DNA of 20,706 nucleotides from a virus: positions 1 through 20,706 of IMG/VR virus record IMGVR_UViG_3300037585_005407. The stretch is one strand, 5' to 3'. Each line of letters begins with the position of its first letter. The first letter of the stretch is position 1. A program made the position numbers and the translations under genes. The notes under the pieces are model-generated. The model had not been told where the DNA came from. It saw nothing but the letters and a program-made list of their open reading frames with translations, and searched no databases. Below, one piece after another: positions 930 to 18,750 of the stretch.

Positions 930-1411
930 TAGCTTAGCTGGTCTTGGACTGACCTAAGCCACTCCTCTACCTCACGCTCCCATTTGTCCCAGTCCTTTAA
1001 AAGTTCTGGAAATTTCACAACCACCCCCCGTGGTACTTTAGGGAAAGGAGGTAACGGGTTGTTCAACCTCACTGATTTAACTGGGGCGAACTTAGCGAAG
1101 ACTCCACCGCCCCTGTTTTTGCTTGAGCCAGAGGACACCCCAAGGAACTTACTTACTGGCTCATTCAAAAAGGTGACGTAGCCACGCGAACCGTCATCGA
1201 GAACCTTGTAAACCCCTCCAGTCCACAAGTCCAAATACATGTCGTCCGGGCCATCTGTATTTAGCTGCGCCAGCTTGTAGTCTGTCGATGGATTAGAAAG
1301 GAACCAGAGGCGAAAGACTTCATCGTCCGTTAACGCCCTGCTCCCCGCCTCTCCTATAAGAGACCGTATCGTTTCGCTGTCTTCAGCGTTAAGATTTCTT
1401 AGTCTCGGCAT
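929..1411 (-). CDS. Unknown protein (160 aa), tail operon
   Basis: The function is not recognised. The ATG at 1411 lies 23 nt inside the end of the upstream 664-aa gene, with only a weak AGG ribosome-binding element before it, so coupled translation is likely. The first 60 residues look helical and acidic. The middle is Gly/Ser-rich and basic (SSGSSKNRGGG, about residues 93-103). A Pro-rich stretch follows (NNPLPPFPKVPRG), then a charged amphipathic helix at the end containing KWEREVEEWLRSVQD. This terminal helix aligns residue by residue with the end of the 266-aa protein downstream. Its position directly after the nozzle-like gene suggests a small tail or internal virion protein, but nothing in the sequence proves it. 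Confidence 0.8.
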   Translation of the reverse strand: MPRLRNLNAEDSETIRSLIGEAGSRALTDDEVFRLWFLSNPSTDYKLAQLNTDGPDDMYLDLWTGGVYKVLDDGSRGYVTFLNEPVSKFLGVSSGSSKNRGGGVFAKFAPVKSVRLNNPLPPFPKVPRGVVVKFPELLKDWDKWEREVEEWLRSVQDQLS

Positions 1412-3383
1412 AAAGCCTAACGGCGCTTAACTCAAACTGACCATCAGTACCATATACTGCTATCTGATAGTAAATGTTTCTACCTCTGGTGTAGCAAGGC
1501 CAGTTGAGTTCTTCATTCGCTCTTGTCCCAGATTCCTTGTGCTCATTGCTTCCCTTATCAGTAACACATTTTATAGGCTTGGCAACTGGATCACCCCAAA
1601 CTAAACCGCAGCCTTGTGTCTTTGTGTTTGAGTCAACAGCTTGAGCAGACTGCCCTAGCATTAGGTCAATAGAACCCGCACTTGACTCATGCTCAAACTC
1701 AGCGACAAACGATCTTAATAGTTTCTCATGCTGAGGGCTGTTCAGCCTCAAGGCTGGGCTTCTAAGCAGAGACCTAAAGTCATCTTCCTTGTAAATCCCG
1801 CACCCTGTTTTTGTTAAGCACCTAGTCCTTGTGAAGCTACCGCCATCAGCCTTTAAACAGTTATCTGTAGTGTACGCCATCACGAAAACCGACTCCTCAT
1901 CGCAAGTATCATTGCACAAATCAGCAAACTTTTTACTTCCAAGCTTTGTGTAAAGGCTTCCAGATGATTCACCACCAAGAAAGTTTTCTGCTGTGATAGA
2001 ATCTGAATCATAAGGAGCGTTATAATCATTTGATGTTGTTGAGTATATACTGTCAATTGCCGGGGAACACAACGTACTACTGAAGCTGTCCGATCCATCA
2101 CAATTACTTGGCCCTTCCGGGGTTTCCCTAAAGCTCGCAATTTTAGCTTCAGTACACATGCAGTTACTCGTAAGAAAGTCCCCTATACTTGTGTAGGACT
2201 TTGATGTGTGAGTAACAAAGTCATGGAAGCCAGCATCCATGTACGAAACATGCTGGTGCTTAATGTTTATTATTATTGTTTTGGAGTTTTTAGTTGATCC
2301 TTTTTGAGGCCAGCTAATCCAGACCTCATCGGTCAGTGAGTTGTACGAGGCAACTGGCAAGTCACATAAGTCGCTGTTTATGTCCCCGGTGATAACACTG
2401 CTCGCCACATGCAACCACTCTGGCTTATCTGGCTTTGCCCTGTAGGCGTTGTAGTAATACACCCCGTCTCTGCCCAAGTAGAAATGATTGTCCCCAGCAG
2501 AGACGAGCGTGTTCTTGTAGAACGGTAAGGAGTTTCCACCATCTTCCGCTGTGTACCTTTTCTTGAACGAGAGAACATCTGTGCCAGTACCACCAGCTAC
2601 ATCGAATTGCCACACCCCTCTTTCAGTATAGACGAGAAGTGAGTTAGCTAAAGGCTCCATCCCTGTAATGTTCTCGCCGTGTCCAAGGTCTTGATACCCT
2701 GCGAGTGAATCCTCTACCTCAGACTCAATCCTTAATGGGTTTTTGAAGTCACTCCACACAAGCCTGTCAGGTATCCACTCGTTATGTTCGTGGACATTCC
2801 CATAGAACATTAGCCCTCTCCATTCTTTAACGTGCTTGATCCTGTTTAGCCCGATAGCAGAGAACCCCTCGATCTCCTTAACCGAGTTAACATTACTTGA
2901 ACTAATCCCCTCGACTGGCTGGTCTATCTTCCAATGAAGTGGCTTGGCAGAATCGTTCACGAAAACACAATCGTCGCCAAGATACGCAACCTTCCACCTA
3001 CCAGACCCGCTTAGCTCGTCGCCAATTAGTTTCCAGTTTTTTGTTTTTGGGTTGTACGAATACAACCGAGACTTAGTACCAGCAACAAGCTTCCCAATCC
3101 CCTCTGTGGTTTTAACTTGCTCGACCAATGTAATCTCTTCTTCAGCGGCTGAGGAATTTGAAGACTTGTCGAGTAACTGATCCCTTAGGTCTGTGTTAAC
3201 CCCGGCAGCGGGAAAAAGTTTAGTCCAACCCTTAGACCTCTCAAGCGTCCCAGCGGCGTTTACCCTAAAGTTCTGAACCCACCTATGCGCTCCAGCAACA
3301 ACGCTGTCCGGGGAGGTTTGAGGGTCTAACGGCCCAGTCAGCGGTCTTACTTCGTAAAGTTTTGCTCTTGGTGAAACGTGCAT
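1389..3383 (-). CDS. Probable tail nozzle/hub protein, beta-propeller-like, with Cys-rich insert
   Basis: This 664-aa protein has the look of podovirus nozzle-type tail proteins (T7 gp12 or P22 gp10 class), though I cannot run a profile search. The N-terminus (residues 12-52: GPLDPQTSPDS, then VQNFRVNAAGTLERSKGW) resembles the opening of such proteins, where a decorated list of beta blades follows. Residues 90-380 contain repeated short beta hairpins with aromatic and Gly turns (VYTERGVWQF, FYLGRDGVYYY, DEVWISWP), as in a beta-propeller. The end (residues 632-660, YTRGRNIYYQIAVYGTDGQF) resembles the C-terminal beta domain of these proteins. Between them, residues 408-528 hold nine cysteines, unusual for a phage tail protein. 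The ATG at 3383 has no Shine-Dalgarno site; the 17-nt gap after the upstream gene is taken up by the 18-bp repeat. The terminal 23 nt overlap the next gene. Confidence 0.72.
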   Translation of the reverse strand: MHVSPRAKLYEVRPLTGPLDPQTSPDSVVAGAHRWVQNFRVNAAGTLERSKGWTKLFPAAGVNTDLRDQLLDKSSNSSAAEEEITLVEQVKTTEGIGKLVAGTKSRLYSYNPKTKNWKLIGDELSGSGRWKVAYLGDDCVFVNDSAKPLHWKIDQPVEGISSSNVNSVKEIEGFSAIGLNRIKHVKEWRGLMFYGNVHEHNEWIPDRLVWSDFKNPLRIESEVEDSLAGYQDLGHGENITGMEPLANSLLVYTERGVWQFDVAGGTGTDVLSFKKRYTAEDGGNSLPFYKNTLVSAGDNHFYLGRDGVYYYNAYRAKPDKPEWLHVASSVITGDINSDLCDLPVASYNSLTDEVWISWPQKGSTKNSKTIIINIKHQHVSYMDAGFHDFVTHTSKSYTSIGDFLTSNCMCTEAKIASFRETPEGPSNCDGSDSFSSTLCSPAIDSIYSTTSNDYNAPYDSDSITAENFLGGESSGSLYTKLGSKKFADLCNDTCDEESVFVMAYTTDNCLKADGGSFTRTRCLTKTGCGIYKEDDFRSLLRSPALRLNSPQHEKLLRSFVAEFEHESSAGSIDLMLGQSAQAVDSNTKTQGCGLVWGDPVAKPIKCVTDKGSNEHKESGTRANEELNWPCYTRGRNIYYQIAVYGTDGQFELSAVRLYAETKKS

Positions 3384-3401: not shown

Positions 3402-5404
3402 CAGTAGTCATTGTGGGTGGTGGCCGAGTATGTGACCCAAGCGCAACCAGCAAAAGCATGACCGCCAGCAGCCCTTGGCGCACTACTCTTGTCTGTAACC
3501 CCAAGAGACCCTGACCCGCCACTCCCCGGAGCGCCAAGGTCAAACCCATTAGACGGCCTAGTAAAAATGAGTTTATTATCGATGTGGCCACTTGTATTGT
3601 GTGATGGCCTAGCCGAATCCCAGACATAACCCCCAGATGCAGGGTGTCCCCCTCTAAGCGTCCCCTTAATTCCAGCACTACTGTCACCCCCGGCCTGTCC
3701 AGCATACTCAAGCTTCCCTATGCCACTTCCAGTCCCAAGCTTTGCGCTTGTGTTTAACGTGCAGATACCTGTCCCACCGTTTGATCTGTTAGTTGTGGCT
3801 GCTGCCCCAAGCTTCCCTCCACCGTCACCGCCCCGCCCAGTAAACTCCCCTGTTACATCGGAGTAACCGCCGCCCTTACCGTTAGAGACTCTAGCAACCT
3901 CAAGCCACTGCCCACTGTTGTCTGCATTGTAAACCTCCAGTACGGTGACGTATCCGTTCCCAGAACCGTTGTTAGATGCGTTTGAATCTGTTGCGTGTGG
4001 CTCACCACACTTAGGCCCGACAGTGGAAGACTCACGCCCTTCCCCTCCCCTATTCCAAGGAACCACTGGGTCTTCGTGGTACGCAGACATGGTGTCCGTA
4101 GTCTGACCGCGAGCCGAGTAGTCAACCACAGCATTAGAGTTATCAATAGTTCTGCACCTGACCTTAGATATGCCATTAGTTGAATCTACACTTGCGTTCA
4201 GTATGTCAAAAGATGCAGCCAATAGCGCCCCTCCCCCTCCAGCCCCGCCGGGAATGTCCAAAGCAACCTCATCTAACTCTCTGTGCATTTTACCAAACGC
4301 AGCAAGAGACTCCCCTGTCGGCGTATAGGTGCTTCTAGCGGGAGTGCTGGAGTGGGAAACGTAATCGTCCCCTTGAACCCAGAACGTCCTACTGTTTTCA
4401 AAATAACTAACCGTATAGTTGCCGTCCCACCCAGCGCCAGAATCTGATTCAGTAAGTTTAATTACATCACCTCTATTGAAACCGTGATCAGTGTAGGTTT
4501 CAAAAACTATCTTAGTCCCGTTGTCGGTTATGTTTTTTATGTATGGAGCGTTATAAGCCTGAGTCACCCAGTCGCCACCAGCAGCACCAGCCCCGCCACC
4601 GCCACGAAGGATAACCCGCATCTGGGTCTTCCCTGTAGGAACAGTCTCCTCGTTTCCCGACCACAATAATTTAGCCTCTGAGCCAGAGGCGCTAAAATCA
4701 GTAACATATTTTGAGAAAGCTTTGACGTAATTACTCAAAGGCCCAGTTACGGTTATGCTGTTGTCTAGGTTCCTTGGCACTACCCAGTAGTGGTAGAGAG
4801 TTTGACCGTCCACAACACTTCCATTCCAATTAACCCCGCCTTTACCGTCATACGCTGGGCCACCGTCAATATCTACATACAAGCAAGTGTTATCAGCTTT
4901 TCTATAATACAGATAACCATCGCTAGTGGTTCCCTCTCTGTCCTGACCCCTTTGAATCCCGCCAGAGGATGGGTCTAAGTCTCTCCTTAACCTAGTTGCT
5001 AAAGTCTTAACCTCCGCATCGGTTAGGGTAGGCTTACTGTTCGTAGGCTTATATTTATAAATGTCATAATGCGTAGCCCCAGCCACACTGTTCCATACAA
5101 GAGGGATGCCGCCATCATGCCTTAGCCCGGCAATAGTTTTCAATATGGGCCTCTTTAAGTTCCCACCGGGGCCACTAATTGGCGGCGGGTCTACCTCTAC
5201 GGTTATTGATTCACAGTCAATGGCACAAACATCACTCTTGAAACTCTCAGTCAGATTTCCGTCCTCGTCCCAGATGTACGCTACAAATTCATAAACATAC
5301 TTTGGAAAATCAACTAACACTTTCTTCAGCCTGTCGCACACGGATGGGGCATCCATGCTCGGCAGCTTGTCTTTTAAATTATTCGGAGTTATTGGGCTTG
5401 GCAT
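3401..5404 (-). CDS. Probable tail fibre/adhesin with N-terminal anchor, FN3-like and glycine-rich domains
   Basis: This 667-aa protein is probably a host-contact fibre or adhesin. Residues 1-64 form an N-terminal module also found at the start of the neighbouring 449-aa protein (MPxxIxPxxLK, then DGxLTxxFK and two Cys), probably a virion-attachment domain. Residues about 87-232 look like a fibronectin-III-type beta-sandwich (PLVWNSVAGATHYDIYKY, YHYWVVPRNLDNSI). Residues 250-400 and 450-660 are glycine-rich (GGGGAGAAGG, GGAGGGG, GAPGSGGSGSLG) and open with a VPxGxTxxxV-type strand, as in phage glycine-rich receptor-binding domains. A small domain at 283-350 with DHGFNRGDVIKL interrupts the glycine-rich part. 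The ATG at 5404 has an AAGGA site 6 nt upstream and follows the previous stop by 15 nt. The fold assignments come from pattern reading, not from a search. Confidence 0.75.
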   Translation of the reverse strand: MPSPITPNNLKDKLPSMDAPSVCDRLKKVLVDFPKYVYEFVAYIWDEDGNLTESFKSDVCAIDCESITVEVDPPPISGPGGNLKRPILKTIAGLRHDGGIPLVWNSVAGATHYDIYKYKPTNSKPTLTDAEVKTLATRLRRDLDPSSGGIQRGQDREGTTSDGYLYYRKADNTCLYVDIDGGPAYDGKGGVNWNGSVVDGQTLYHYWVVPRNLDNSITVTGPLSNYVKAFSKYVTDFSASGSEAKLLWSGNEETVPTGKTQMRVILRGGGGAGAAGGDWVTQAYNAPYIKNITDNGTKIVFETYTDHGFNRGDVIKLTESDSGAGWDGNYTVSYFENSRTFWVQGDDYVSHSSTPARSTYTPTGESLAAFGKMHRELDEVALDIPGGAGGGGALLAASFDILNASVDSTNGISKVRCRTIDNSNAVVDYSARGQTTDTMSAYHEDPVVPWNRGGEGRESSTVGPKCGEPHATDSNASNNGSGNGYVTVLEVYNADNSGQWLEVARVSNGKGGGYSDVTGEFTGRGGDGGGKLGAAATTNRSNGGTGICTLNTSAKLGTGSGIGKLEYAGQAGGDSSAGIKGTLRGGHPASGGYVWDSARPSHNTSGHIDNKLIFTRPSNGFDLGAPGSGGSGSLGVTDKSSAPRAAGGHAFAGCAWVTYSATTHNDY

Positions 5405-6769: not shown

Positions 6770-7775
6770 TTGCAGCAATCCTTTCGTCTTCTACAGGGTT
6801 TGGCTTTATCCATCGCCTTATATTGTTTGCGTAAAACCTAATCATCTCTTGGTGCTTATCGTTCTCGGACTGGCTGAGCATGGTTAGAAATATCCTCCCC
6901 AGAATCTTTGCGTTGTAGTCTATTTGCTGCCCCCTTGCTTTAACCCCGCCAAGATCAAGGTGGAAGTGGAATGAAGTTATCTCACCGAAATCGGTGTGTA
7001 ACCCGTTATCCAGCTTCCAACCTGTATGCTCCAGCACCCTGTCACAGGGAACATCTAGGAACCCGGACATATCGCCGTAACCTTGGAAGTGATAAGACTG
7101 TATTTGTTCCGTGCTTGGGAAGTGCTTAACATCGTAAGCATCGCTTGCGCGAGACAAGCACTCCTGTTCGTAGTAGACACTGCTTTTAATTGTCTCCTCT
7201 CTCCACCAATCGGAAAAGTCTTTACGAGAAGTGTAAACCATTGAGCCAGTATAGACGCCGTACCTCTCTTCCATCTTCTGTCTCCACTCGTCATTAGTTT
7301 TAAGGAAGTAGTTAGCGCATTGCGGGTACAGGGCCACTTCGGAATCTATCTTAACGTCTATGGGCCTTACATAGTAAATGTCACCATCAACCATTAACGT
7401 GCTGTTGTGATCCGATAACGCAAAATCAACCGCATCTGGTTTTCGGAACATCAATTCAATAGGGTGGAAATAATGCCACTCCTTTTTGTAACTGTCTGCC
7501 CCGCCGTTAAACATCCCCTTGGATATTTTTCTATTCGATTCGTCGTTAACATTCGACCTACAGTAAACATCCTTAAACCCAAAACGGGTTATCATTGCCT
7601 CTGTCTCGTCATCGCAGATTACATAGATCGGCTGATCGTGAAATAGCCTTATAGAATACAGGGAGAACATCCCCTCCCACAGCCCGTTAACATCGATGAT
7701 TGTACAAAAACTGTCCGGGCCAGAAGGTGTGCCTTTCTTTAACTCAAGACTTCTTATTTCCTCTAGTGAAAGCAT
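6762..7775 (-). CDS. Putative GT-A-fold glycosyltransferase (337 aa)
   Basis: The protein probably transfers a sugar from a nucleotide-sugar donor. The start is ATG at 7775, which shares one base with the TGA stop of the VWA gene (TGATG), rather than the in-frame TTG 9 nt upstream. Residues 22-60 give an alternating beta-alpha pattern (FCTIIDVN, QPIYVICDD) as at the start of a GT-A nucleotide-sugar fold. Residues 127-140 contain a metal-binding DxD-type motif in a typical setting (LMVDGDIYYVRPID, D130 and D132). Downstream, YTGSMVYTSRKDFSDWW at about 175-191 and EQECLS at about 203-208 resemble the acceptor-side region of GT8-like enzymes. No signal peptide or membrane segment is seen, so it should act in the host cytoplasm. 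Its place inside the tail operon suggests it modifies virion proteins or host surface precursors. Donor and acceptor are unknown. Confidence 0.65.
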   Translation of the reverse strand: MLSLEEIRSLELKKGTPSGPDSFCTIIDVNGLWEGMFSLYSIRLFHDQPIYVICDDETEAMITRFGFKDVYCRSNVNDESNRKISKGMFNGGADSYKKEWHYFHPIELMFRKPDAVDFALSDHNSTLMVDGDIYYVRPIDVKIDSEVALYPQCANYFLKTNDEWRQKMEERYGVYTGSMVYTSRKDFSDWWREETIKSSVYYEQECLSRASDAYDVKHFPSTEQIQSYHFQGYGDMSGFLDVPCDRVLEHTGWKLDNGLHTDFGEITSFHFHLDLGGVKARGQQIDYNAKILGRIFLTMLSQSENDKHQEMIRFYANNIRRWIKPNPVEDERIAANA

Positions 7776-10153
7776 CAGGCGCAAACATCCTCGCTGTTAA
7801 AGTCCTCACTAAATATTTCAGTCTTCGATCCCCCTACCCCAATCCTCTCAAGCAGAACACTACCCACCAAGACCCCGTATGTTTTCGGCCCAACAAACTC
7901 GTCGCCCCCGCTTGTTTCGTACCTCTTGTTTTCGAGTTGCTCAAATGGAACCAGATGCCCTTGCGTTGTTTGATACCCTGAGTAGTCCTGTACTGTTATA
8001 GGGTTAACATAGTCTGAACAATAACCCTCAAACAACTTAGGATCTAGCGTATGCTTGAACGGATTGGTGTCCCACCCCTTCGGGTACTGCTCAATCCTTA
8101 TGTGGACATCTTCTCCTGTCGTGTTGAAGTCCATGAAGCGAGCCGAGAACCCGCTTGAAGGGTCTACCGTAAATACCTGTTGATAACCGCCCTCAAGCTT
8201 TCTTGTGCAAAGCCTCGGCTTCCCGTTTTTAAACCCCCACGAAACTGTACCGCTTACGTCAACATCATTGGCAAAAATGCCACGGACTAGATTGCCAGCT
8301 ACTTTGCCGCCGACTGACACCCTGACAGAACTGTTTAAATCGTCACCCAAATCTGGAAACGTAACCTCCAGATTCCCCGCTAAATGAACGGTTAGCCTGT
8401 AGCTCCCCGGCTCTAGCTGGTATTGCTTTGATGTCTGTATCCCCCCGAAGTATTCATCAAAAGGAGCATAGTAACGCTGGCAATTTGTTTCAGCTACAGG
8501 AACCGCCAGACCTTTGGAGACAGGCAGATCGCCGCGCATACCAATTAACCCAACGTACTGCCCGTTACCCGGCTGCAATGAGTCCCATATATCGTTACCC
8601 ATTAAATCAACTCTGCCTTTAAAAACGTCCCAGTTGTTAAAGCCGTGGTAGTTGTACCTGTCCTGTAGGCACGGGTTAACGGTTGGTGTAGCAGTTGGCG
8701 CTGCGATATATTCACACGGAGAACCAGTAGCGTTGTTGTCGCAAATTATTTTGTGTATCTTGCTAAACACATTAACAAGCTCCCCAACGTCATCTGCCTT
8801 ATAGTACAGATTGCAACTAGCTATGTCCGTACCCAGATAAGCATCTATAGATTTACTTGAAGTGTTAGAACAATCATAAATCTGCTTGGTTCCAAGAATA
8901 TTAAATCCGACAACAACAATGATTGTCCCTGCTGCTCGATTCTCTGCCTTGATTGTCCCGGCAGCAGCGCCAGTTCCACTTGTTACCGCAAACGTAAACG
9001 TGGTGACTCCCGTTACCGTAACCGTATGGACGCTATTATACTTTGCTGCATTAGAACCAGTAGCTCCGTTAATGGTTATTAAATCGCCGCTTGTAAACCC
9101 ATGATTAGCAGAAGTTGTTGCCGTGGCTGTCCCGCCTGACTCTGTAATGCCAGATACAGTCTTAGCAACATTAGCCTTGATCGTTGCGGCAACGGTCTCT
9201 GGTGCTGGGTCACAAACATTCTCAACCCCGTCCGTCATTACAACTATTACACGCCTCTTCCCTCCTCGCGCTTTTTCTTTAAGGAGTTCGTAGGCAGATT
9301 CTAGCCCACCACCTATCCCTGTGGCACATGTACTAAGGCTTGCACTCTTGCCTCCGCACTCTTCAGAAACCTCTATGTCGTTAACCCCGCTTATAGCTGA
9401 CTCTTCAGTTGGGGTTAGGTCAACGTGTGTGTAAACATTAGGCCCGTGATTCTTGCTTCCCGCATACGAGATAACCGCAACACGATCAAACTCAAAGGGG
9501 TACAGCGTAGTGTCCCCCTCCTGTTTTGTGTCTGGCATATTGGCTGATCTAACAAGCGCCCTTGATGCCTCTTTGGCAGCATCGATCCTCACAGCGCCAG
9601 CGTCATCCTCTTGCAGCATTGAGCCGCTCCTGTCCATCACCAGAACAATATCACTACCCACCCGCTTACACTCGTCCACAATTGTAACTGGGGCAGAGGC
9701 GTTCAGTCTGTCTAGCTCTCTGACTGCATCGTCTGAAGTCTCCCAATCCCAAACACTATAGGAAGCGAACACTGCCTCAGTAGAGTTTGCATCTACATAA
9801 GCAGCTTTAAAGAGACCATTGCCTTTAGAGCTTAGAACAGCTTCATCAGACGAAGACCAATCCACTAAATCAGTGACATCTTTTTCTTTAGTGGTGTCTC
9901 CAAACTTAAACACTAACCTAGCCGTGAAACGGATCGATTTGCCTTCTTCGACTTGTGCGTCAGTCTCTGGTTTTATGACGAGCTTTTCTATCGCTGGGAC
10001 TATACTGCAAAGTGTTGGGTTAAGAGCCGCAAACTCAGGGTCTGAACACCTTGCGTCATCTGTTGTCGCTGGCTTGTAGTTCTCGGAAACCACGGAAGTG
10101 GATTCTGTTTTCTTATTTAAGCACCCCTCTGTTTTAACTTTACTGAAATCCAT
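7775..10153 (-). CDS. Multidomain VWA virion protein with Ig-like and galactose-binding-like domains (792 aa)
   Basis: The ATG at 10153 shares one base with the upstream TAA (TAATG). Residues about 57-157 resemble a bacterial Ig-like (Big_2) domain (VEEGKSIRFTARL, VDWSSSDEAVLS). Residues 167-470 are a von Willebrand A domain with a complete metal-ion-dependent adhesion site: DRSGS (D174, S176, S178), T278 and TDG (D308). A small domain with HGFTSGDLITINGATG interrupts the VWA fold at about 333-405, before the strand GTIIVVVGFNIL. Residues about 500-780 look like a galactose-binding-type beta-sandwich resembling DUF642 (VDLMGN, GQYVGLIG, LEPGSYRLTVHLAGN, and a closing GVLVGSVLLERIG). VWA domains bind protein or glycan ligands, so this is a candidate adhesin carried on the virion. 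No signal peptide is present, which fits assembly into a particle rather than secretion. Confidence 0.78.
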   Translation of the reverse strand: MDFSKVKTEGCLNKKTESTSVVSENYKPATTDDARCSDPEFAALNPTLCSIVPAIEKLVIKPETDAQVEEGKSIRFTARLVFKFGDTTKEKDVTDLVDWSSSDEAVLSSKGNGLFKAAYVDANSTEAVFASYSVWDWETSDDAVRELDRLNASAPVTIVDECKRVGSDIVLVMDRSGSMLQEDDAGAVRIDAAKEASRALVRSANMPDTKQEGDTTLYPFEFDRVAVISYAGSKNHGPNVYTHVDLTPTEESAISGVNDIEVSEECGGKSASLSTCATGIGGGLESAYELLKEKARGGKRRVIVVMTDGVENVCDPAPETVAATIKANVAKTVSGITESGGTATATTSANHGFTSGDLITINGATGSNAAKYNSVHTVTVTGVTTFTFAVTSGTGAAAGTIKAENRAAGTIIVVVGFNILGTKQIYDCSNTSSKSIDAYLGTDIASCNLYYKADDVGELVNVFSKIHKIICDNNATGSPCEYIAAPTATPTVNPCLQDRYNYHGFNNWDVFKGRVDLMGNDIWDSLQPGNGQYVGLIGMRGDLPVSKGLAVPVAETNCQRYYAPFDEYFGGIQTSKQYQLEPGSYRLTVHLAGNLEVTFPDLGDDLNSSVRVSVGGKVAGNLVRGIFANDVDVSGTVSWGFKNGKPRLCTRKLEGGYQQVFTVDPSSGFSARFMDFNTTGEDVHIRIEQYPKGWDTNPFKHTLDPKLFEGYCSDYVNPITVQDYSGYQTTQGHLVPFEQLENKRYETSGGDEFVGPKTYGVLVGSVLLERIGVGGSKTEIFSEDFNSEDVCA

Positions 10154-11937
10154 TACGAGTATGTAGCTGATGCGGCGTTAGCTGCCTTGGTTAATGTAAG
10201 TGTGTCTTGAACCGTTCCGTCTTTTGATATGAACTCAAACTTCAGCGTGTCATCAGACATCGTTCCCTTTAATGCACCGTGTAGCGCGTTGTACTTCTTG
10301 ACGCTTGTAATGCCAGAGGCCAGCGAACTTGAGTGCCAATCACGCAAGGGAGCGCCCCCTGCGCCGTTCACAATATAAGGAAAGTCCCCAGAACCCTTTA
10401 ACCTTTCATAGCTGTGAGCGTGACCAGAAAGAACAATATCAGCACCCCAGTCCTTGAACGGCCACCTCATTTCTGGTGTGCCAGAATTGCTGGATGCGTT
10501 TTCATCTGACGAGTGAGGAGGGTGATGAAAGTAAACCACTTTCCAATGGCAGTCAGAATCATTCAGCCCACTAGCAAGCCAGTCGGCTTGTGCTGATGTG
10601 TCCCCCCTGTGTGGAGATGTGTTTTGTGAGCCAGCAAGAACCTCTGGCTCAACCGCTGTTCCAGCAGTATTGATCCCGCTGTTAACACAAAAGAAATGTA
10701 TCCCGCCTTTCTTGAAATCATAGAACCTCTCATTACCCGGAAGGGTGAAGTAACTTAAATAATTACTTAAACTTGTGGCTGGGTCTCCTTGGTAATCGTG
10801 GTTGCCAACCGCCGGGAAGAACTTGTTTTCCTTGGCAGTGGATGTGTAGGTCGCAGACTGGCTTGTGCCGAACGGGAAAATGTAGTCACTGTAGTGCTGT
10901 CCAATGTTGACATCGTAGTAATTCTCCCCGGCATCGCTGTCGCTACCGTCCGTATCATAACTGTTGTCACCAGTTGTTACTATGAATGACGGACTCCATC
11001 CTTTTACGAGTGTTGCAACAGCACCCGCATTGGTTCCGTCATAATCGCCAGCACCCGCCGAAGCCCCGTAGTCACCTATCTGAGCGAACACAAGTGATGT
11101 CGCCTCAGCAGCAGCCTCTACAGTTTCCTCACTAGCTTTGGCGTTTCTCCTAGCGGCGAGGATATCAAACGACTCTTGGCAGTTAACATACTGCTTTAGT
11201 TCGTTCTGCTTACTGCACTCATAGATCAAATCCCCTACAGCATCGTTAAACTCAAGGGACAGGAACCTGTACTTTTCGTAGTCGTTATCAAAATCCCTAC
11301 AGTATTCCTTGTGGACATACAGCTTTAATGCGCGAATAAAGTCGGCGTCATCTGGGACAATATCCTCATCTCCGTATGACTGCTGTAACCCCTCCCACTC
11401 CGCTACCAGTACCTCGTTAGAGTTTAGCCAAGGTGACACCCACAGCTTCCCTTTGTCTAAGGCCCATCTGCCCGTAACGGCACGGTAGTGCTTCGACACT
11501 CCCTGCGTGGATACAGCGCCTGACACAACTGCCTTGTAATCGCTTGTACTCTCAGGGTATTTGAACCCCAACGGCAAAGCCTCAAAGCCGCTGTTCTCAG
11601 GGGGGAACACCGTCTTTAGATAGCTCAAGGAATGGCAGTCTACATCAGCCTTTGTGGTCTGCCTGAACAGGGCTGGGTAATCCTCGTCCCCTGCTTGGAT
11701 GGTGTATACTTTACTGATCCTTCCTTTCGGCGCATCAACAACCGTCTTACCCGCTTGGAAATAAGTTGAGCACTGCGGGTAGCGACTTATGTTCTTGGTC
11801 TGGAAGCAAGGAACATACCTCTGAATATGAACCAATCCAGCGGTTATGTTCTTCAGCGCAGGGCCAGATATGTTTTCTGGTAGCCCCTCAGGCCAAATGT
11901 CACTTTGCAGTTCTTCAACTAATTTCCTGTATTTCAT
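10153..11937 (-). CDS. Adaptor-like virion protein fused to a purple-acid-phosphatase-type metallophosphoesterase (594 aa)
   Basis: The C-terminal part (residues about 280-584) carries the full set of calcineurin-like phosphoesterase motifs: GDY (D289), GDNSY (D324 and Y327), GNHD (N379, H380), HHPPH (H472 the likely ligand) and GHAHSYER (H506, H508). The D-x-x-Y spacing and the GHxHxYER ending are hallmarks of purple acid phosphatases, which use a dinuclear Fe-metal centre to hydrolyse phosphate esters. The N-terminal part (about 1-250) is unrelated to phosphatases. It ends in a helical segment (DEDIVPDDADFIRALKLYV, then YEKYRFLSLEFNDAV) that reminds me of podovirus head-tail adaptor proteins. 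An Ala/Glu-rich linker (about 266-279) joins the two. The ATG overlaps the upstream stop as ATGA. There is no signal peptide. A virion-borne phosphatase acting on surface phosphoesters is the favoured reading; the natural substrate is unknown. Confidence 0.8.
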   Translation of the reverse strand: MKYRKLVEELQSDIWPEGLPENISGPALKNITAGLVHIQRYVPCFQTKNISRYPQCSTYFQAGKTVVDAPKGRISKVYTIQAGDEDYPALFRQTTKADVDCHSLSYLKTVFPPENSGFEALPLGFKYPESTSDYKAVVSGAVSTQGVSKHYRAVTGRWALDKGKLWVSPWLNSNEVLVAEWEGLQQSYGDEDIVPDDADFIRALKLYVHKEYCRDFDNDYEKYRFLSLEFNDAVGDLIYECSKQNELKQYVNCQESFDILAARRNAKASEETVEAAAEATSLVFAQIGDYGASAGAGDYDGTNAGAVATLVKGWSPSFIVTTGDNSYDTDGSDSDAGENYYDVNIGQHYSDYIFPFGTSQSATYTSTAKENKFFPAVGNHDYQGDPATSLSNYLSYFTLPGNERFYDFKKGGIHFFCVNSGINTAGTAVEPEVLAGSQNTSPHRGDTSAQADWLASGLNDSDCHWKVVYFHHPPHSSDENASSNSGTPEMRWPFKDWGADIVLSGHAHSYERLKGSGDFPYIVNGAGGAPLRDWHSSSLASGITSVKKYNALHGALKGTMSDDTLKFEFISKDGTVQDTLTLTKAANAASATYS

Positions 11938-12368
11938 TTATTCTGTCTCTTTCCAGACTTCGGCTTGTAATCTTTGGGTAATGCCTTCTCGCCCTCTGTC
12001 TTTGAGAACACAGTTTCCTTTGGGTTAGCCGCAGTTACAGCCTTTGGTTCTGGGGTAGGCGGGGCGGGGGGAGTTACCGAGTCTTGTACCTTGTTGACTC
12101 CCCCAATTTCCTCTCGCCATGTTCGCCTTGATCCTGTTGAGAGCGTCTTTTTTTTTGAATCCTCATATTCGCTTTTAGACAAAGCCCGTATACCATAAGT
12201 TCCAAGAATAGACTCAAGGTAGCCATTCATCGCGGCGTCACTTGAACTGAGAAACCCAGTCCCGGTTTGGCCTAATTCCTCAAACGGTACGAAACCATTA
12301 CCATCCTCTGATGGAACAGGGTTTGACACATTTGACTTGCTCCAATATTTCACTGAGTTGCCAGCCAT
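11934..12368 (-). CDS. Small Pro/Lys-rich protein, first gene of the tail operon (144 aa)
   Basis: I do not recognise the family. The ATG at 12368 (MAGNSVKYWS) is preferred over an in-frame GTG at 12377, because the GTG lies in the spacer just after the candidate -10 box and would not be in that promoter's transcript. There is no Shine-Dalgarno site, so translation may be leaderless. The N-terminal 80 residues look soluble (FVPFEELGQTGTGF, then a helix with NGYLESILGTYG). The rest is a Pro-rich (VTPPAPPTPEPK) and strongly basic tail ending DYKPKSGKRQNK. The gene sits between the capsid gene and the adaptor-like gene, and its stop overlaps the next start as ATGA. A small head-completion, decoration or assembly factor would fit this position; none is proven. 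Confidence 0.75.
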   Translation of the reverse strand: MAGNSVKYWSKSNVSNPVPSEDGNGFVPFEELGQTGTGFLSSSDAAMNGYLESILGTYGIRALSKSEYEDSKKKTLSTGSRRTWREEIGGVNKVQDSVTPPAPPTPEPKAVTAANPKETVFSKTEGEKALPKDYKPKSGKRQNK

Positions 12369-12377
12369 AGCGAACAC

Positions 12378-12450: not shown

Positions 12451-14394
12451 TTAGTTCCCGTGAAGCGGCACTTGGTTATCGAAGTTTTCGATAATTAAGT
12501 TATCGCTAGGACACTCCACAATGGCCGTCCAAGTCTGAGAGTTCAGAGTGATCTCTCTGGTTGGGTTCTCCATCACGCAAGCGTAATCAGAGTTGACCTT
12601 AGCCAAGTCATCCAAGTTCCCGGTGGTGTGAACCTTTCGGTTGGAAGCAAGGATGCCCGGATAGATACCACCACCCAAGTCGAGGATCATCAAGAAGCGG
12701 CCTTGAGAACCTTTCTTGGCGGCAACACCACTATGAACTCCATCGACGAGAGAAGCCGTAGTGACCATATCATCGAAGAACTCGTTCGTGATGATGTTCA
12801 TCTGAACACCAGCGGGGTTATGAAGCATGTAGGACTGGGTGTAAAACCCGCCAAACAGGCTGCTTGACCCTATATCTGAAGTAACTTCAGTTATTCCCTC
12901 TGCCTTGTAGTAGGCAATCATCGCCTTGAAGATTTGACGAGCCGTCTTTGTGTCCGTGAACACATCAACACTATCCGCTGGCTTGCCTTGATCCTTGCGG
13001 GAACGAGTCAAGTCGAAGATTTTGTTGAACAGGTCAGTTTCAAGGGTTAATTGACCACCCTGCTTATCAGTCACACGACCGCAATCTTGCAACTGGCGAT
13101 AGATACCAACTGAGTTGGCGCGATACCCGATGAGCTTCTGCTCCATACCAGAGGTAAGCTCACTTGGGTTTGTCCCACCCAAACCGGGGTAGCTCTGGAT
13201 TTGATCCAGCGATTTGTAACCAGCTAATGTCTGGTTGGCTCCAATAGGCTGACCCCAGAAGAAAGCGTTAACCCACTCTTTCTGGAACATCAACCCAAGC
13301 TGGCGGTTCCTCTCTGCCAGAGGAACGTCACCGAACTTCTGGAAGAAAGTGTTAGTCGCCATCATCTTCTCCAACCACTCCTTGTAGAACTGGTCAACAC
13401 ATGTGGTGTAACGGCTGGTTTGATACCAGAACGGTACATGCTTCAACGTATTGAGGGCTGGGCGATTCTCGCACCACCTCTCAAAGTCATTGATGTTGTT
13501 CACCCCTTGGACAACCAAGGCCGTGTTTGCCTTAGATATCTCCTTTGAAGCACCAGAAGCCATGTCGGCATCCCATGTTACCGCAGCGCCAGCGCCATAT
13601 CCGCCAATGATCTTAACCTCAACATCAACGAACTCGGTGTCAGCACTAAGATACGCAATATTGGCAGACTCGACCAAACCGCCAACAGATTGAATTACCT
13701 CAAACTCTAAACGGAATGAATCACCACTTGTGTCTTTAGCAAACACAAAGAGATGAGACCCTTTAGGGAAATACTGAGCCGTAATTGGCTGATTACCATT
13801 ACTAGGCGCTCTCAGTTTTAAGATGTTGTAGTTGAGGGCATCTCCACCGGGAGTAGCAATCAACTGACCATCAGCGTGTTCTGCGGCTAAAGCATCACTA
13901 GAGTTAATGGACTTGTATTTATTGCTAGAAGCACCAGAAGTGTAGATGCGCTCCACCCTCCAGTAGTTGTCCTTAATAATGTCCTTCTGTGCAGCAAGGA
14001 TGAACGGGTCAACCTCAGCGGAGCCGCCTTGGACTTTCTTGGTGTTCACCAAGTTTCCAACGGACTTAGCTGAACTCATCAACCAGTCGTACATTCCGTA
14101 CTGTCGCTGACCACAGGTCTTCAACTCCATTTGAGTTGTCAGCATGTGGGTCATATCACGATAGTTACCGTCAGAGTCCTTGAAAATATCATCAAGGTCT
14201 GCTGGTGTCGCAAGGCCAATGTTAGACCTAGTTATCGTGCCGCAAGTGTTGTAGCTGTTCCAGATAGCTGGACTAGCGTTGCACTTTGAGTCCGACATGA
14301 TGTTGGCTTGGTTAGTACCAAAGCCTCCATGCGGATTAGCTGGGGTGGGTGTAGCACTCCCGGCTGATGTTGCCGTATATTTTACAGTTGCCAT
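12451..14394 (-). CDS. Probable major capsid protein (HK97-fold), 647 aa
   Basis: The assignment rests on context and general features: it directly follows the scaffold-like gene, has the best ribosome-binding site of the head operon, and is followed by a strong terminator, as expected for the most abundant virion protein. It is soluble and mixed alpha/beta. A helix-rich middle (about 330-380, FYKEWLEKMMATNTFFQKF) is followed by VDVFTDTKTARQIFKAMIAYYK at about 476-497, resembling the P-domain region of HK97-type capsids, and by a late strand-rich segment (FLMILDLGGGIYPGILAS). At 647 aa it is much longer than the usual 300-450 aa. A beta-rich stretch at about 200-265 (SHLFVFAKD, SFRLEFEVIQS, DVEVKIIGGYG) could be an inserted surface domain. 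The start is ATG at 14394. Without a structure-based comparison the HK97 fold is an inference. Confidence 0.72.
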   Translation of the reverse strand: MATVKYTATSAGSATPTPANPHGGFGTNQANIMSDSKCNASPAIWNSYNTCGTITRSNIGLATPADLDDIFKDSDGNYRDMTHMLTTQMELKTCGQRQYGMYDWLMSSAKSVGNLVNTKKVQGGSAEVDPFILAAQKDIIKDNYWRVERIYTSGASSNKYKSINSSDALAAEHADGQLIATPGGDALNYNILKLRAPSNGNQPITAQYFPKGSHLFVFAKDTSGDSFRLEFEVIQSVGGLVESANIAYLSADTEFVDVEVKIIGGYGAGAAVTWDADMASGASKEISKANTALVVQGVNNINDFERWCENRPALNTLKHVPFWYQTSRYTTCVDQFYKEWLEKMMATNTFFQKFGDVPLAERNRQLGLMFQKEWVNAFFWGQPIGANQTLAGYKSLDQIQSYPGLGGTNPSELTSGMEQKLIGYRANSVGIYRQLQDCGRVTDKQGGQLTLETDLFNKIFDLTRSRKDQGKPADSVDVFTDTKTARQIFKAMIAYYKAEGITEVTSDIGSSSLFGGFYTQSYMLHNPAGVQMNIITNEFFDDMVTTASLVDGVHSGVAAKKGSQGRFLMILDLGGGIYPGILASNRKVHTTGNLDDLAKVNSDYACVMENPTREITLNSQTWTAIVECPSDNLIIENFDNQVPLHGN

Positions 14395-14431: not shown

Positions 14432-15991
14432 TCACCCCCAAAGAAACTTCTTTATGTTTTTCTGGTTGTCCACATTTACATCCCCTGTCTCTCCAGATGG
14501 AGATACGTTATGGGTTCCTCCAGACAAACTTGGGCTGGTTGGTTTAGCCCCGGAATTACTAACAGCAACAGGGCTTGCGGCTTTCTTCCTTGGGGAAGTT
14601 TTCTTCCCATTAAGAACTTTTGAGTAACGATCCAGCTTTTCTTTTTCCTGTTTGATTATATCGTTCACTGTTCGGCCAAGATCGTTTACATACATGTCCT
14701 TTACATGACTCGGCTCAAGCCTCCAATGCTGGGTTCTTTGCTGCTGGTTCATGTTCATCCAGCTTTCTGTCGTGGCAAACTGCTTGCCGTCATGCGACTT
14801 CTGTGATGACGGCAATGCCGCTATCTCCCGCTCCTTGCCTAATGCGTAATCCACTATCTCCCTATGGACAGGGTTATTCACATCAATGCCGAATCGCTTG
14901 TCCCTGTGTGAGAGCTTCTCCAACTCATACAAATGCTTCTCGCTGCTTCCGATAACAGAATTGATTGCATCGTGAGCGATAGGATCAGAGTCCTTTAACG
15001 CATCACCCCCTTGTTCTTGAATAACTTTAAGGTAGTCATCGCCAACAGACTTCACCACGGTGGCAATACTTTCAGTTGTTCCAGCATCCAGTTGATCTTT
15101 GATCTGAGTCTCGGTAACTTGAGACCTTAGGGAATCCAACTCAGACTTATATCTCTGCTCAGACTCCGCTACAATGCGCTTAGCTTTAGACTGTATTCTG
15201 GCGTCATCGTAATCCACATCATCATACTCAGGTATGTTCGTTGAAACAAAATCTGCATGCTCATCCTCAGAAGCGTCAAAGCGCACACCGGGGTTATCAG
15301 TAACCCACTGTTTCTTGTATTCATTTAGGTTGGCAAGATACTGCTTGTACTTATCCCGTATCCCTTTGTAGCGAGGGTTTCCCTCCATCTCAGCAAATAC
15401 ATCAAGGTCTGACTTGTTGAGGCGCTCTATCTCTCCGAGTCCCCCTTCATCAGGCTCGGACACGGCTGGGACATCTGGTGTCCTGTTAGCGGCATCAGCC
15501 ACAGAACTTGCGGTTTCCCTAATTATGTCCCGTATGTCCTCAGGGTTGAAATCCTTCTTTGCCTTCCTTTTTCTAGGCTTCTTCGGCTTCTCCTCAGCAA
15601 CCTCGGCAACCTCGGCAACCTCCTCTTCGTTATCCTGTACTCCTATCTCATTAGAGGGTTCCTCCTCAGGCTCCGGGTCAGCATCCTTAAACCCTAACCG
15701 CTCCATCATCTTTGATGCAGCAGACTCGGTATCACTCTGGCCGTCTGGAGCAACGTCCTCTTGAGTTTGTTCTTCTGCCGCCTCTTCAGTTGGTGGCTCC
15801 TCTTCAGTTGGTGGCTCCTCTTCCCTGCTTATTGCGGGAACGGTGTTGTCAGCGTATCTCCCAGAGATAGCCGAAAGCGGGTCTCCGCTTGGCTCTAGCT
15901 GATTTTGTGATTGCTGTACCGCTGATACCACGGACAGATAACTTGGGGTTTGTTGCAACCCCACTTGCTTGTCTATTAAGTCTGACGCCAT
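14432..15991 (-). CDS. Probable capsid scaffolding protein (519 aa)
   Basis: Its position directly before the capsid gene and its composition fit a scaffolding protein, which guides procapsid assembly and then leaves or is degraded. The N-terminal 130 residues are Gln/Glu/Pro-rich and probably disordered, with tandem EEEPPT-type repeats (about 57-70) and EVAEVAEVAEE (about 124-134). A basic patch KPKKPRKRKAKK follows at about 135-146. Residues 150-460 are charged and helical with coiled-coil character (SEQRYKSELDSLRSQVTE, EKEKLDRYSKVL). The C-terminus is basic and flexible, then ends NIKKFLWG, comparable to the capsid-binding tail of other scaffolds. The ATG at 15991 overlaps the upstream gene by 16 nt with only a weak ribosome-binding site. 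No protease motif was recognised. Confidence 0.75.
   Translation of the reverse strand: MASDLIDKQVGLQQTPSYLSVVSAVQQSQNQLEPSGDPLSAISGRYADNTVPAISREEEPPTEEEPPTEEAAEEQTQEDVAPDGQSDTESAASKMMERLGFKDADPEPEEEPSNEIGVQDNEEEVAEVAEVAEEKPKKPRKRKAKKDFNPEDIRDIIRETASSVADAANRTPDVPAVSEPDEGGLGEIERLNKSDLDVFAEMEGNPRYKGIRDKYKQYLANLNEYKKQWVTDNPGVRFDASEDEHADFVSTNIPEYDDVDYDDARIQSKAKRIVAESEQRYKSELDSLRSQVTETQIKDQLDAGTTESIATVVKSVGDDYLKVIQEQGGDALKDSDPIAHDAINSVIGSSEKHLYELEKLSHRDKRFGIDVNNPVHREIVDYALGKEREIAALPSSQKSHDGKQFATTESWMNMNQQQRTQHWRLEPSHVKDMYVNDLGRTVNDIIKQEKEKLDRYSKVLNGKKTSPRKKAASPVAVSNSGAKPTSPSLSGGTHNVSPSGETGDVNVDNQKNIKKFLWG
15597..15623. repeat. Three tandem 9-bp units in the scaffold gene
   Basis: gcaacctcg, gcaacctcg and gcaacctcc follow each other without gaps. 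They keep the reading frame and encode the EVAEVAEVAE stretch of the scaffold's disordered N-terminal region. This is a short slippage-type repeat. Confidence 0.8.
15782..15823. repeat. Tandem 18-bp repeat in the scaffold gene
   Basis: Two exact copies of ctcttcagttggtggctc (15782-15799 and 15800-15817) are followed by the first 6 bases of a third. The unit is a multiple of three and encodes the repeated EEEPPT segment, so copy-number change would lengthen or shorten the acidic linker without breaking the frame. Confidence 0.85.
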
Positions 15992-16290
15992 AACAGTTCT
16001 TCAGAAATTCCTATTTTAGTATCCGCGAACGGGTAATCCCCGGCTTGAACCTTTTCCATTAGTTCTAACATTCCCCTTAAATCCCAAACCCTCTGCGCTG
16101 ATTGCCTAGCCGGGGCTAACTTTCGCTCATCCTGACTGGCTTCAACCAGATTTCGGGAAATCTCCTCTTGTAGAGAGGCTATTTCGTTGTGAATTAACCT
16201 CCTAAACAAACGTGCCTCATCTTGCCTCAACCAACTCTGGACTTGGATTAGCTTGCTGTCCTCCACCGGGGACTGGGATACTTGAATCAT
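15976..16290 (-). CDS. Small helical protein between portal and scaffold genes (104 aa)
   Basis: The start is ATG at 16290 (MIQVSQSPVED), which has AGGA 5 nt upstream. An earlier in-frame ATG at 16335 would only add residues lying inside the portal frame and has no better site. The gene overlaps the last 74 nt of the portal gene and the first 16 nt of the scaffold gene. The product is mostly charged helix (QSWLRQDEARLFRRLIHNE, LRGMLELMEKVQAGDY) and probably a coiled coil or small helical bundle. Small helical genes are common at this place in podovirus head modules, but I cannot link this one to a known family. A portal or scaffold assembly partner is a guess from context. Confidence 0.68.
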   Translation of the reverse strand: MIQVSQSPVEDSKLIQVQSWLRQDEARLFRRLIHNEIASLQEEISRNLVEASQDERKLAPARQSAQRVWDLRGMLELMEKVQAGDYPFADTKIGISEELLWRQT

Positions 16291-18502
16291 ACTGTTCCTG
16301 TGCTGGAGGTTGCGGAGCCTGTGGCTGCAACGCATCCAGTATTTGTGAAATTGCTTCCGTATTCTGCTGGGTGTTTTGGGCTATTGGCTCAATAGCCCCA
16401 CCTACCTCTTCCATAATACTGGCCTTAATCTGCTCAGCGATCTGCACCATTTGCTCTTGCTGCTCAGGGTTCTGGCCATCAGCCACCTTCTGTAACTTAA
16501 AGTCTTTGGGTAGCCCCATCATGTGGCCCATCTGGTTGATAACATCCAGAACCTGTTCAAGTCCGATGGATTGCCGAACCTCTGGATCGCTAACGATCAC
16601 TTGGTAAAGCTGCGATAAAGCATTTGCCATTGCGCCATCTGACACACGGTCAAGAGCGTCCCTGTAGGAGCCTATGGTCTCCAGATCAAGGGCTGTCTTC
16701 TGGCCCTTAACTCTTACTGAGCCAGATCGGTCGTCATCTTTTTCAGTAACGGTAAACCCTAACTCGTTAAGGGCATCAACCGTGTTCTGAGAGTTTATCG
16801 TAGCGTAAACAGAGTCCTCCCCATACGCCATCAATGCCTTGTACAATTGTTCCTTCCACGCATTCATGGCGTCATCCACCCCTGTTGCGGTGAACGCCAG
16901 CCTAGTAGTGGTAGTGGAGGCTATCGTCCTGACCTCCTCGGCAGTCTGTTCGTGGCTCGCAACCTGTGCTATCTCCTGAGCAGAGATAACAAGGAGTCTC
17001 TCCAGCATATCTATGATCTGCCTCATCGCACCAACGATCCCGTTCGTATCCAACGTGGAAAAACGAACCGAGTTGAACGCTTCCCTTACATCAGTCTGGG
17101 CAAACTTTTGTTGGCGGGAACTGAACGGAAGAAAGTTAAGGCTCCTGAATAGTTTTTCCCCCCAGTTTTGCAGCCTACTAATGACATCACCATTGACTTG
17201 ATCTGTATCAACAAAGGTAATATTTGCTAAGTTCTGCTTAACCGACAAGAGGTACTGGGTTAGAAGGTTCCCTATCTGATCTTGGAAGGGGACAATCTCC
17301 ATGCTTAGCGAAGCGTTCATTGAACGCCCCTCATCCGGGTCGTAAGCATAGTATACAACCGGGCAATAAGGAACTGGAGCAGCGTATAAGACAGTATTAT
17401 CGTTAGCCAAACAAAAGCGAAACCATACAGGATGATCATAATCACCAAGGCCATACTCAGATGGAACAATTTTTTCAAAATACTCAGTAATTAGAACCGC
17501 CTTATCGTCTTCAGCTTTGCTGTAATACCTGTCCAGTTCCTTCTCCCTGTCAAAAAGCCCAGCACCTTTAGATGAGGACGGGAACTCCATTGTACACGGA
17601 GACACCAACTCTAGGTAAGTCTTTGCGTTGTTTAACAGGTCGGTAGTTCTGCCGTACAGAATCTTATCCGTGTTCCAGAACATGGAATTAGAACGTATGT
17701 CGCCATACCGCATGATCCTCCAGTAGCCAGCAAACGAAGCCCCTGAGTCTGTGTTGAAAGTGGTTGGCCTATGGGCTTGGTCGTGGAATGTTCTACTGGG
17801 ATGCGGTAGGTGATACCTAACACCCTCACGAACATACTTCTCCTCCTCTTCCCCGGCTGAGTTGATGACCACCTGTTTCTCGGAGTGCCACTCTTCCTGA
17901 GGGAACTGCATGCACCATCCGTAATGCAGCATTTGAAAAATAGACTGCTTTAGGACTTCGCTGTAACCATAACTGTTCGTAATCGTTTGCACCCTATCCG
18001 TTATGATCTCCTCCCTCAGCTTGTTGACGGTTGTGTGCTTACCCATCTCGTACTTAAACAATGGGTACTGCCTTCTATCGTTGTAAATCCTAGCCCACCT
18101 GATCGTGACATAGCTCCTCACAATCGGCACAAAAACATTAAAGAACACAGGTATGTTTAAGGACTTGCGTGTCCCTTTAGCGTCTTCAGTTGTCTCAAGC
18201 ATGGAGGTTAGCCCCCAATCCCTGACAGCATCCATAACCGTGTCGCTGTCCAAGTCCTTTGAAAGGATTGAGTTAGCCAACGTGGGGCTTACCTGTTTGA
18301 ATGGAGTGTCCCAAGCCAAGTCCAACGCATGGTAAACCTTGTGGTTTTTAATGCACCATTGCAGCCCATCGTCCACCCTATCCCTAATCCTGTTTAGGAG
18401 GGGGACTGCCTTCTCAGGGACTTCATGGTCTTCATTATCAAAAACCTTCTTGAGACCCTCCGAGTTTACGCCACGCCTGTTTAAAACATTTAAATCAATC
18501 AT
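16217..18502 (-). CDS. Probable portal protein (about 761 aa)
   Basis: The portal forms the dodecameric DNA channel at one capsid vertex, docks the terminase during packaging and joins the tail. The call rests on size, gene order (terminase, small genes, portal, scaffold, capsid) and internal features: a long helical N-terminal half with surface-exposed aromatic segments (YVTIRWARIYNDRRQYPLF, YWRIMRYGDIRSNSMFWN), a middle helical segment (MRQIIDMLERLLVISAQEI) followed by SHEQTAEEVRTIASTTTT, where portals have their tunnel-helix region, and a Gln-rich coiled-coil C-terminus (about 665-740) ending in a Pro/Gln tail. I chose ATG at 18502 (MIDLNVLNRR) because it shares one base with the TGA of the preceding gene (TGATG). 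A GTG 90 nt upstream would bury 30 residues inside that gene. Length is near the large end for portals, comparable to N4-like phages. Confidence 0.78.
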   Translation of the reverse strand: MIDLNVLNRRGVNSEGLKKVFDNEDHEVPEKAVPLLNRIRDRVDDGLQWCIKNHKVYHALDLAWDTPFKQVSPTLANSILSKDLDSDTVMDAVRDWGLTSMLETTEDAKGTRKSLNIPVFFNVFVPIVRSYVTIRWARIYNDRRQYPLFKYEMGKHTTVNKLREEIITDRVQTITNSYGYSEVLKQSIFQMLHYGWCMQFPQEEWHSEKQVVINSAGEEEEKYVREGVRYHLPHPSRTFHDQAHRPTTFNTDSGASFAGYWRIMRYGDIRSNSMFWNTDKILYGRTTDLLNNAKTYLELVSPCTMEFPSSSKGAGLFDREKELDRYYSKAEDDKAVLITEYFEKIVPSEYGLGDYDHPVWFRFCLANDNTVLYAAPVPYCPVVYYAYDPDEGRSMNASLSMEIVPFQDQIGNLLTQYLLSVKQNLANITFVDTDQVNGDVISRLQNWGEKLFRSLNFLPFSSRQQKFAQTDVREAFNSVRFSTLDTNGIVGAMRQIIDMLERLLVISAQEIAQVASHEQTAEEVRTIASTTTTRLAFTATGVDDAMNAWKEQLYKALMAYGEDSVYATINSQNTVDALNELGFTVTEKDDDRSGSVRVKGQKTALDLETIGSYRDALDRVSDGAMANALSQLYQVIVSDPEVRQSIGLEQVLDVINQMGHMMGLPKDFKLQKVADGQNPEQQEQMVQIAEQIKASIMEEVGGAIEPIAQNTQQNTEAISQILDALQPQAPQPPAQEQYDSSIPVPGGGQQANPSPELVEAR

Positions 18503-18750
18503 CAGACTATTTTGGGGCTGTTCTTGATCAGCCTCTCCTTGGAGTATTGTAACACAATCCTGTTCCTCACTGCCCGACTCACCTTTTTCCACACCTTCAG
18601 ATAGACGTAAGTGTCGCCGACCTTCTCGGTTTTGTCGTGGTAGACCAAACTCCTTAGTCCTTTCCCTTTAACAGGGGAGCACCCAGAAACCTCTAAATCC
18701 AAACTAACGGTACAATCTGGGTTGTCGATTACTGTAACATTAGGCTTCAC
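18502..18750 (-). CDS. Small basic unknown protein (82 aa)
   Basis: No family is recognised. The start is GTG at 18750 (MKPNVTVIDNP), overlapping the upstream gene by 11 nt, and no ATG lies in frame nearby. The stop overlaps the portal ATG (TGATG), which supports both starts and a coupled operon. The N-terminal half looks like beta strands (TVSLDLEVSGC, TYVYLKVWKKV) and the end is a basic helix (RAVRNRIVLQYSKERL). It could be a small head-assembly or connector accessory protein; only the neighbourhood points that way. Confidence 0.65.
   Translation of the reverse strand: MKPNVTVIDNPDCTVSLDLEVSGCSPVKGKGLRSLVYHDKTEKVGDTYVYLKVWKKVSRAVRNRIVLQYSKERLIKNSPKIV

Follow-up and report, generated by a model that had tools for sequence, protein, structure and literature searches.

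Enzymes carried by phage particles usually sit on fibres, spikes or tail tips. The protein described here combines two parts whose closest described counterparts belong to separate systems. Its N-terminal half resembles head-to-tail adaptors of the T7 gp11 type (T7, P-SCSP1u, SU10, N4 and cyanophage A4) in predicted fold, length and gene position (structural alignment Z of ~10–11.6), but shares no detectable sequence similarity with these adaptors, which stop at an embracing helix or loop and lack an enzyme. In T7 this 'embracing helix' runs along the exterior of the clip and stem of the portal, next to the capsid (PMC6702177), as it does in the adaptor of P-SCSP1u (PMC10575957). The C-terminal half shares with mammalian and plant purple acid phosphatases (PAPs; structures 2bq8 and 1kbp) the fold, seven metal ligands and the DxG, GDxxY and GHxHxYER motifs, but differs from them in being fused to a virion protein and in that the motif tyrosine is lost in close relatives with otherwise intact sites. 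PAP-like proteins of Chloroflexota, Bacteroidota and Ignavibacteriota differ in their leader-like N-termini, their frequent PA14, CBM, Ig or sorting domains and the lack of an adaptor domain.

Among phages, genes annotated as purple acid phosphatase occur in Microbacterium phage Rowlf and, with variable presence, in the EK1 podoviruses. DumpQuist gp46, which carries the same annotation, was rejected as a relative on matching neither our adaptor nor our PAP profile. ORF22 of Thermobifida phage P1312 encodes a metallophosphoesterase for which its authors propose teichoic acid as target, but it has a signal peptide and a CBM and is proposed to be secreted rather than to serve as an adaptor. Plasmodium GAP50, a eukaryotic protein of PAP fold titled an anchor, is a precedent for repurposing of the fold only. 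An adaptor-PAP fusion did not appear in the mainly open-access literature covered on phage PAPs and metallophosphoesterases, an absence that is weak evidence. As far as we searched, an enzyme built into a head-to-tail adaptor is undescribed.

Results

The window analysed here, 20,706 bases of a virus, is IMG/VR record IMGVR_UViG_3300037585_005407. The fusion gene occupies positions 10153–11937 as an open frame with an ATG start and no internal stop, encoding 594 amino acids plus a stop codon and having full-length homologues; the coordinates given in a first-pass annotation are exact, and the strand is minus. It overlaps the end of an upstream gene for a 147-aa protein (11934–12377, minus strand), a conserved neighbour of the adaptor, and the start of the next downstream gene (7775–10153, minus strand), which encodes a 792-aa protein with a von Willebrand factor A (VWA) domain (Pfam VWA_2, 5.6e-11). 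The latter protein has an apparent Ig-like N-terminal part and adjoins the adaptor gene across much of the family, and its VWA domain, encoded in an operon for virion proteins, may serve as a second module for binding surfaces.

Farther upstream on the minus strand lie a putative major capsid protein (12451–14394), assigned from position and conservation with no Pfam or PHROG match, a putative scaffolding protein (14432–15991; position and composition) and a putative portal protein (16217–18592; position and size, with no family match). Downstream, at 1389–3383 on the same strand, is a virion structural protein (PHROG 3287, 1.6e-27) that we call nozzle-like by inference. The order on the minus strand is hence portal-like, scaffold-like, capsid-like, 147-aa protein, adaptor-PAP, VWA protein, other genes and nozzle-like protein. 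A terminase large subunit is encoded on the plus strand (19033–20505; PF04466, 1e-8; PHROG 2, 2.7e-27), with only remote similarity to halovirus and Gordonia phage terminases.

Residues 1–262 (11152–11937, minus strand) have the features of a T7 gp11-type head-to-tail adaptor, an assignment supported by predicted fold and gene position rather than by sequence. Pfam, PHROG and PDB sequence searches did not identify this domain; a profile of 28 N-domains found no PDB chain at E 1, and cultured phage records gave no N-domain match even at E 1. An AlphaFold model of the N-domain built with 28 aligned homologues (pLDDT 84) retrieved by Foldseek 16 PDB matches at E <0.001, all of them phage tail, neck or portal-tail complexes, among them cyanophage A4, SU10, GP4, crAss001, VP1 and KHP30. 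Matches to adaptors span model residues 1–257, with Foldseek E values of 3e-7 to 7e-4 and VIA-align Z scores of 8–11.6. In VIA-align the best 40 rows are neck, portal-tail or tail-complex chains of phages or gene transfer agents (Moo19, Z 11.6; T7 gp11, Z 10.6, rmsd 5.5 over 163; N4, Z 10.4), and unrelated proteins start at about Z 5.2. The helix bundle and beta 'fiber dock' of gp11-type adaptors are present in the prediction, although the rmsd to solved adaptors is large (5–7 Å). Among the BFVD matches are proteins bearing the names head-to-tail adaptor and tail tubular protein A.

Across the loci examined, the adaptor gene comes after the capsid-like gene and before the nozzle-like one, in so far as these fall inside the locus. 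Both this gene position and the matches to phage neck chains bear out the first-pass proposal that the N-terminal ~250 residues are a head-tail adaptor. One objection which that annotation raised against itself, that this part might be an Fn3-type domain of the kind associated with phosphatases, is not supported, its structural matches being phage adaptors. At residues 254–271, where an embracing helix would be expected, AlphaFold predicts a helix at low confidence. The flexible linker (residues 263–280; 11098–11151, minus strand) has pLDDT <50 in 263–265 and 267–279, and alignment indicates it to be longer in relatives. The linker region of the window contains no Met from which the PAP could be translated separately by an internal start.

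Residues 281–584 (10186–11097, minus strand) constitute a metallophosphoesterase domain of the purple acid phosphatase type, as the first-pass annotation had proposed and as sequence, fold and ligands together uphold. Pfam Metallophos (PF00149) matches residues 284–510 (E 8.6e-13); Metallophos_C (PF14008) reaches E 0.069 and 14.3 bits in the window against a cut-off of 23, and 22.3 bits in the relative L074. Mammalian PAPs are the closest solved relatives by sequence (rat PAP, 2.3e-5). The full-length model of the protein has a pLDDT of 77, and PAP structures align to its C-terminal half with Z of 26–28, the top match being human PAP 2bq8 (Z 28.2, rmsd 3.1 over 268 residues). Metallophosphoesterases other than PAPs score well below this (GpdQ, 20.1; PhoD, 19.1; Mre11, 17.1). 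GAP50 (3tgh, Z 25.6) ranks with the best of the structural matches.

Alignment with PAPs and 84 cellular relatives places seven metal ligands in five motifs, all present in the window and all on the minus strand: D289 of the DxG motif (codon 11071–11073), the bridging ligand D324 of GDxxY (10957–10968, through to the codon of the PAP tyrosine Y327), N379 and H380 of GNH (10798–10803), H471 of V-x2-H (10525–10527), and H506 and H508 of GHxH (10414–10422). Of the motif residues listed in the first-pass annotation all but one stand, and its GHxHxYER block is real; the exception is H472, whose place as ligand is taken by H471. The latter aligns with the histidine of mammalian PAPs and is invariant in a clade that is presumably marine, to judge from IMG data-set numbers, whereas H472 is Asn in L010 and L016. 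In 14 sequences of this clade (L013 excluded) the ligands are invariant at 7/7 positions, with 88 of 305 columns invariant overall (chance expectation ~1.7e-4).

The D-x-x-Y tyrosine, also pointed out in the first-pass annotation, is present in the window but varies within the group: position 327 is A in L002 and G in L003, L020 and L021, with A, G or M in some relatives. Close relatives that are intact in other respects show this change, so the metal site may not be identical to that of classical PAPs. The tyrosine-less intact forms L002, L003, L020 and L021 have an Asp at the next position (GDNSAD, GDNSGD, GDNTGD), which is perhaps a substitute ligand. With a complete two-metal site, as in most relatives, the PAP domain of the window is most likely catalytically competent.

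IMG/VR scans with the whole protein, the terminase and alignments of the N- or C-domain yielded 53 distinct related adaptors, 32 of which have the PAP domain; those with PAP share the conserved portal-scaffold-capsid-adaptor-nozzle operon. The search for the same fusion suggested in the first-pass annotation thus succeeded, the full-length fusion recurring in 31 other distinct adaptors on many independent contigs. A chimera made during assembly, a second objection in that annotation, or a frame misread across two unrelated genes has nothing in its favour beyond the novelty of the domain pair and is negligibly probable given this recurrence. The halves of the gene are also matched in G+C (0.489 and 0.494), and in both of them dN is very low against a saturated dS. 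Between the window and L002 or L003 the saturation of synonymous sites leaves dN/dS undefined. The annotation's remark that no standard phage family has this pair of domains agrees with the lack of cultured matches to the N-domain, of a family for the protein in PHROGs or NCBIfam, and of a described example.

Other modules take the place of the PAP domain in part of the family. Pfam identifies DUF5977 repeats there in nine adaptors (L043, L082, L092, L094, L098, L100, L101, L234 and L252), and a CHB_HEX_C_1/Fn3-associated (chitobiase-C/Fn3-like) domain in three (L075, L089 and L250); in L039, L077, L084 and L214 the protein stops shortly past the adaptor domain. DUF5977 is a stalk domain of bacterial fibrillar adhesins (PMC8286594). 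Presence of PAP requires four changes on the N-domain tree, so that a single gain followed by losses is possible. One adaptor-PAP relative, L222 (3974–6079, plus strand), has an intein/Hint insert within its adaptor domain (Hint_2, 2.9e-8; Intein_splicing, 4.7e-6), which is unusual in a phage neck protein. Four gut phage records (MT835841, MT835888, MT837099 and MT839322) match the PAP half only, at 25–27%; the first of them, the unannotated human-gut record L202 (MT835841.1), has a remote PAP-like ORF of ~317 aa at 3957–4907 (profile E 8e-12).

All seven ligands are kept in 21 of 31 scorable PAP domains, very divergent carriers (L215, L220, L222, L235 and L255) included. Three or four ligands are lost in three domains (L013, four; L078 and L224, three each), and all seven in another seven (L080, L083, L085, L086, L088, L091 and L207), which keep the remainder of the domain, xYER included. 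L013 (1032–2849, minus strand), from the marine clade whose other sequences are intact, has the substitutions D289N, N379D, H380R and H506Q, a recent inactivation. The tree of PAP carriers implies four changes between intact and lost states, and with some deep branches weak the number of events is approximate, pointing to about four independent ligand losses. The dead clade contains the PAP-less L077, L084 and L214, whose PAP was presumably deleted after its death.

In the one lineage in which selection was measured (L085, L086, L088 and L091), Nei-Gojobori dN/dS is 0.09–0.15 for the dead PAP half (dS 1.2–1.9) and 0.05–0.15 for the adaptor half (dS 1.0–2.4). The similarity of these values indicates that the dead domain is constrained as a protein and is not decaying. 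Catalysis, the role emphasised in the first-pass annotation, cannot be the whole story, since purifying selection maintains the domain in related phages that have lost every ligand, and the seven relatives without any ligand imply that some phages of the group do without catalysis.

These observations could be taken to mean that the neck retains the PAP fold for adhesion or for stabilising the ring, with catalysis ancestral and incidental even where the ligands remain. Retention of the domain through about four independent ligand losses, purifying selection on its dead form, the occurrence of DUF5977 or Fn3-like modules in its place and the PAP-fold anchor GAP50 among the best structural matches all agree with such a purely structural or binding collar. 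Intact ligands in 21 of 31 domains, however, very divergent carriers among them, would be unexpected if catalysis were neutral, and we consider this explanation unlikely, though it is the most serious competitor to a surface enzyme.

The nearest cellular relatives of the PAP half are PAP-like proteins of Chloroflexota, Bacteroidota, Ignavibacteriota and others (37–45% identical). Their ligands are nearly always intact, a count biased at D289 and H471 as the search patterns include those motifs. Sampled relatives have leader-like N-termini, and in several of them the PAP part is combined with PA14, GLEYA, CBM96, bacterial Ig or T9SS sorting domains, which suggests that they are extracellular and glycan-associated; the adaptor domain is absent from the cellular loci examined. 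In the PAP tree the sampled cellular sequences all fall on one side of a branch (SH-aLRT 90). The PAP domain of the adaptor would accordingly be a relative of secreted bacterial enzymes.

This extracellular affinity, together with the position of the adaptor-PAP gene in a structural operon, speaks against an intracellular nuclease or counter-defence phosphoesterase that merely rides on a structural protein. Nuclease and anti-defence activities do occur among phage metallophosphoesterases (PMC12287305), but mycobacteriophage Gp48, the model for such a role, is an early protein, and we regard this role as very improbable in the present case.

Discussion

We propose that the fusion protein is the adaptor of a short-tailed phage, extended at its C-terminus by a flexible linker and a PAP domain. 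The fusion, its recurrence, the state of the ligands, the synteny and the selection are observed and the folds are predicted, while the ring, the collar position, the activity, its substrate and a role in adsorption are inferred. The adaptor part would form a 12-subunit ring on the portal. As the embracing helix of described adaptors lies outside the portal and a flexible linker follows, the PAP domain is expected on the exterior of the particle, with as many as 12 copies around the collar. During adsorption, intact PAP domains would most likely hydrolyse phosphoesters of the host surface or of the polysaccharide coat covering it. Since about four lineages keep PAP after ligand loss, the fold very likely has the further task of binding the host surface or stabilising the collar; the retention of dead forms and the exchange with DUF5977 adhesin stalks or Fn3-like modules argue for the same additional role. 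Taken as a whole, from the outside collar to likely surface phosphoester hydrolysis combined with binding or stabilising, we judge the evidence for this proposal evenly poised.

Surface-phosphoester chemistry explains the intact forms most economically, while the substrates named in the first-pass annotation (teichoic acid, lipid A phosphates, phosphorylated glycans and polyphosphate) are guesses. PAPs and related enzymes are broad phosphatases, and many of the relatives come from data sets that we take to be marine, both of which would fit an enzyme whose substrates are soluble or released (nucleotides, extracellular DNA, polyphosphate or organic phosphate) and providing phosphate for host or virion. 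An enzyme bound to the neck in up to 12 copies per particle would, however, be a poor phosphate scavenger, and such a function appears improbable, if slightly less so than an intracellular one.

The particles of this group probably carry a ring of phosphatases or pseudophosphatases around the neck. A broader generalisation, which we offer tentatively as falling somewhat short of an even balance, is that in a large lineage of uncultured short-tailed phages the adaptor C-terminus may act as a display socket at the neck, on which the usual occupant, a PAP enzyme, has repeatedly become a conserved pseudoenzyme that binds surfaces, the intact, partly dead, dead and deleted forms being stages of this change. 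If our proposal is true, up to twelve phosphatase domains would stand at the neck of a widespread group of uncultured phages, raising the possibility that these phages edit phosphate groups of the host surface on arrival. With the domain occurring naturally on one scaffold in every state from intact through partly and fully dead to deleted, it would then be directly testable whether a virion enzyme becomes a binder once its catalysis is unneeded.
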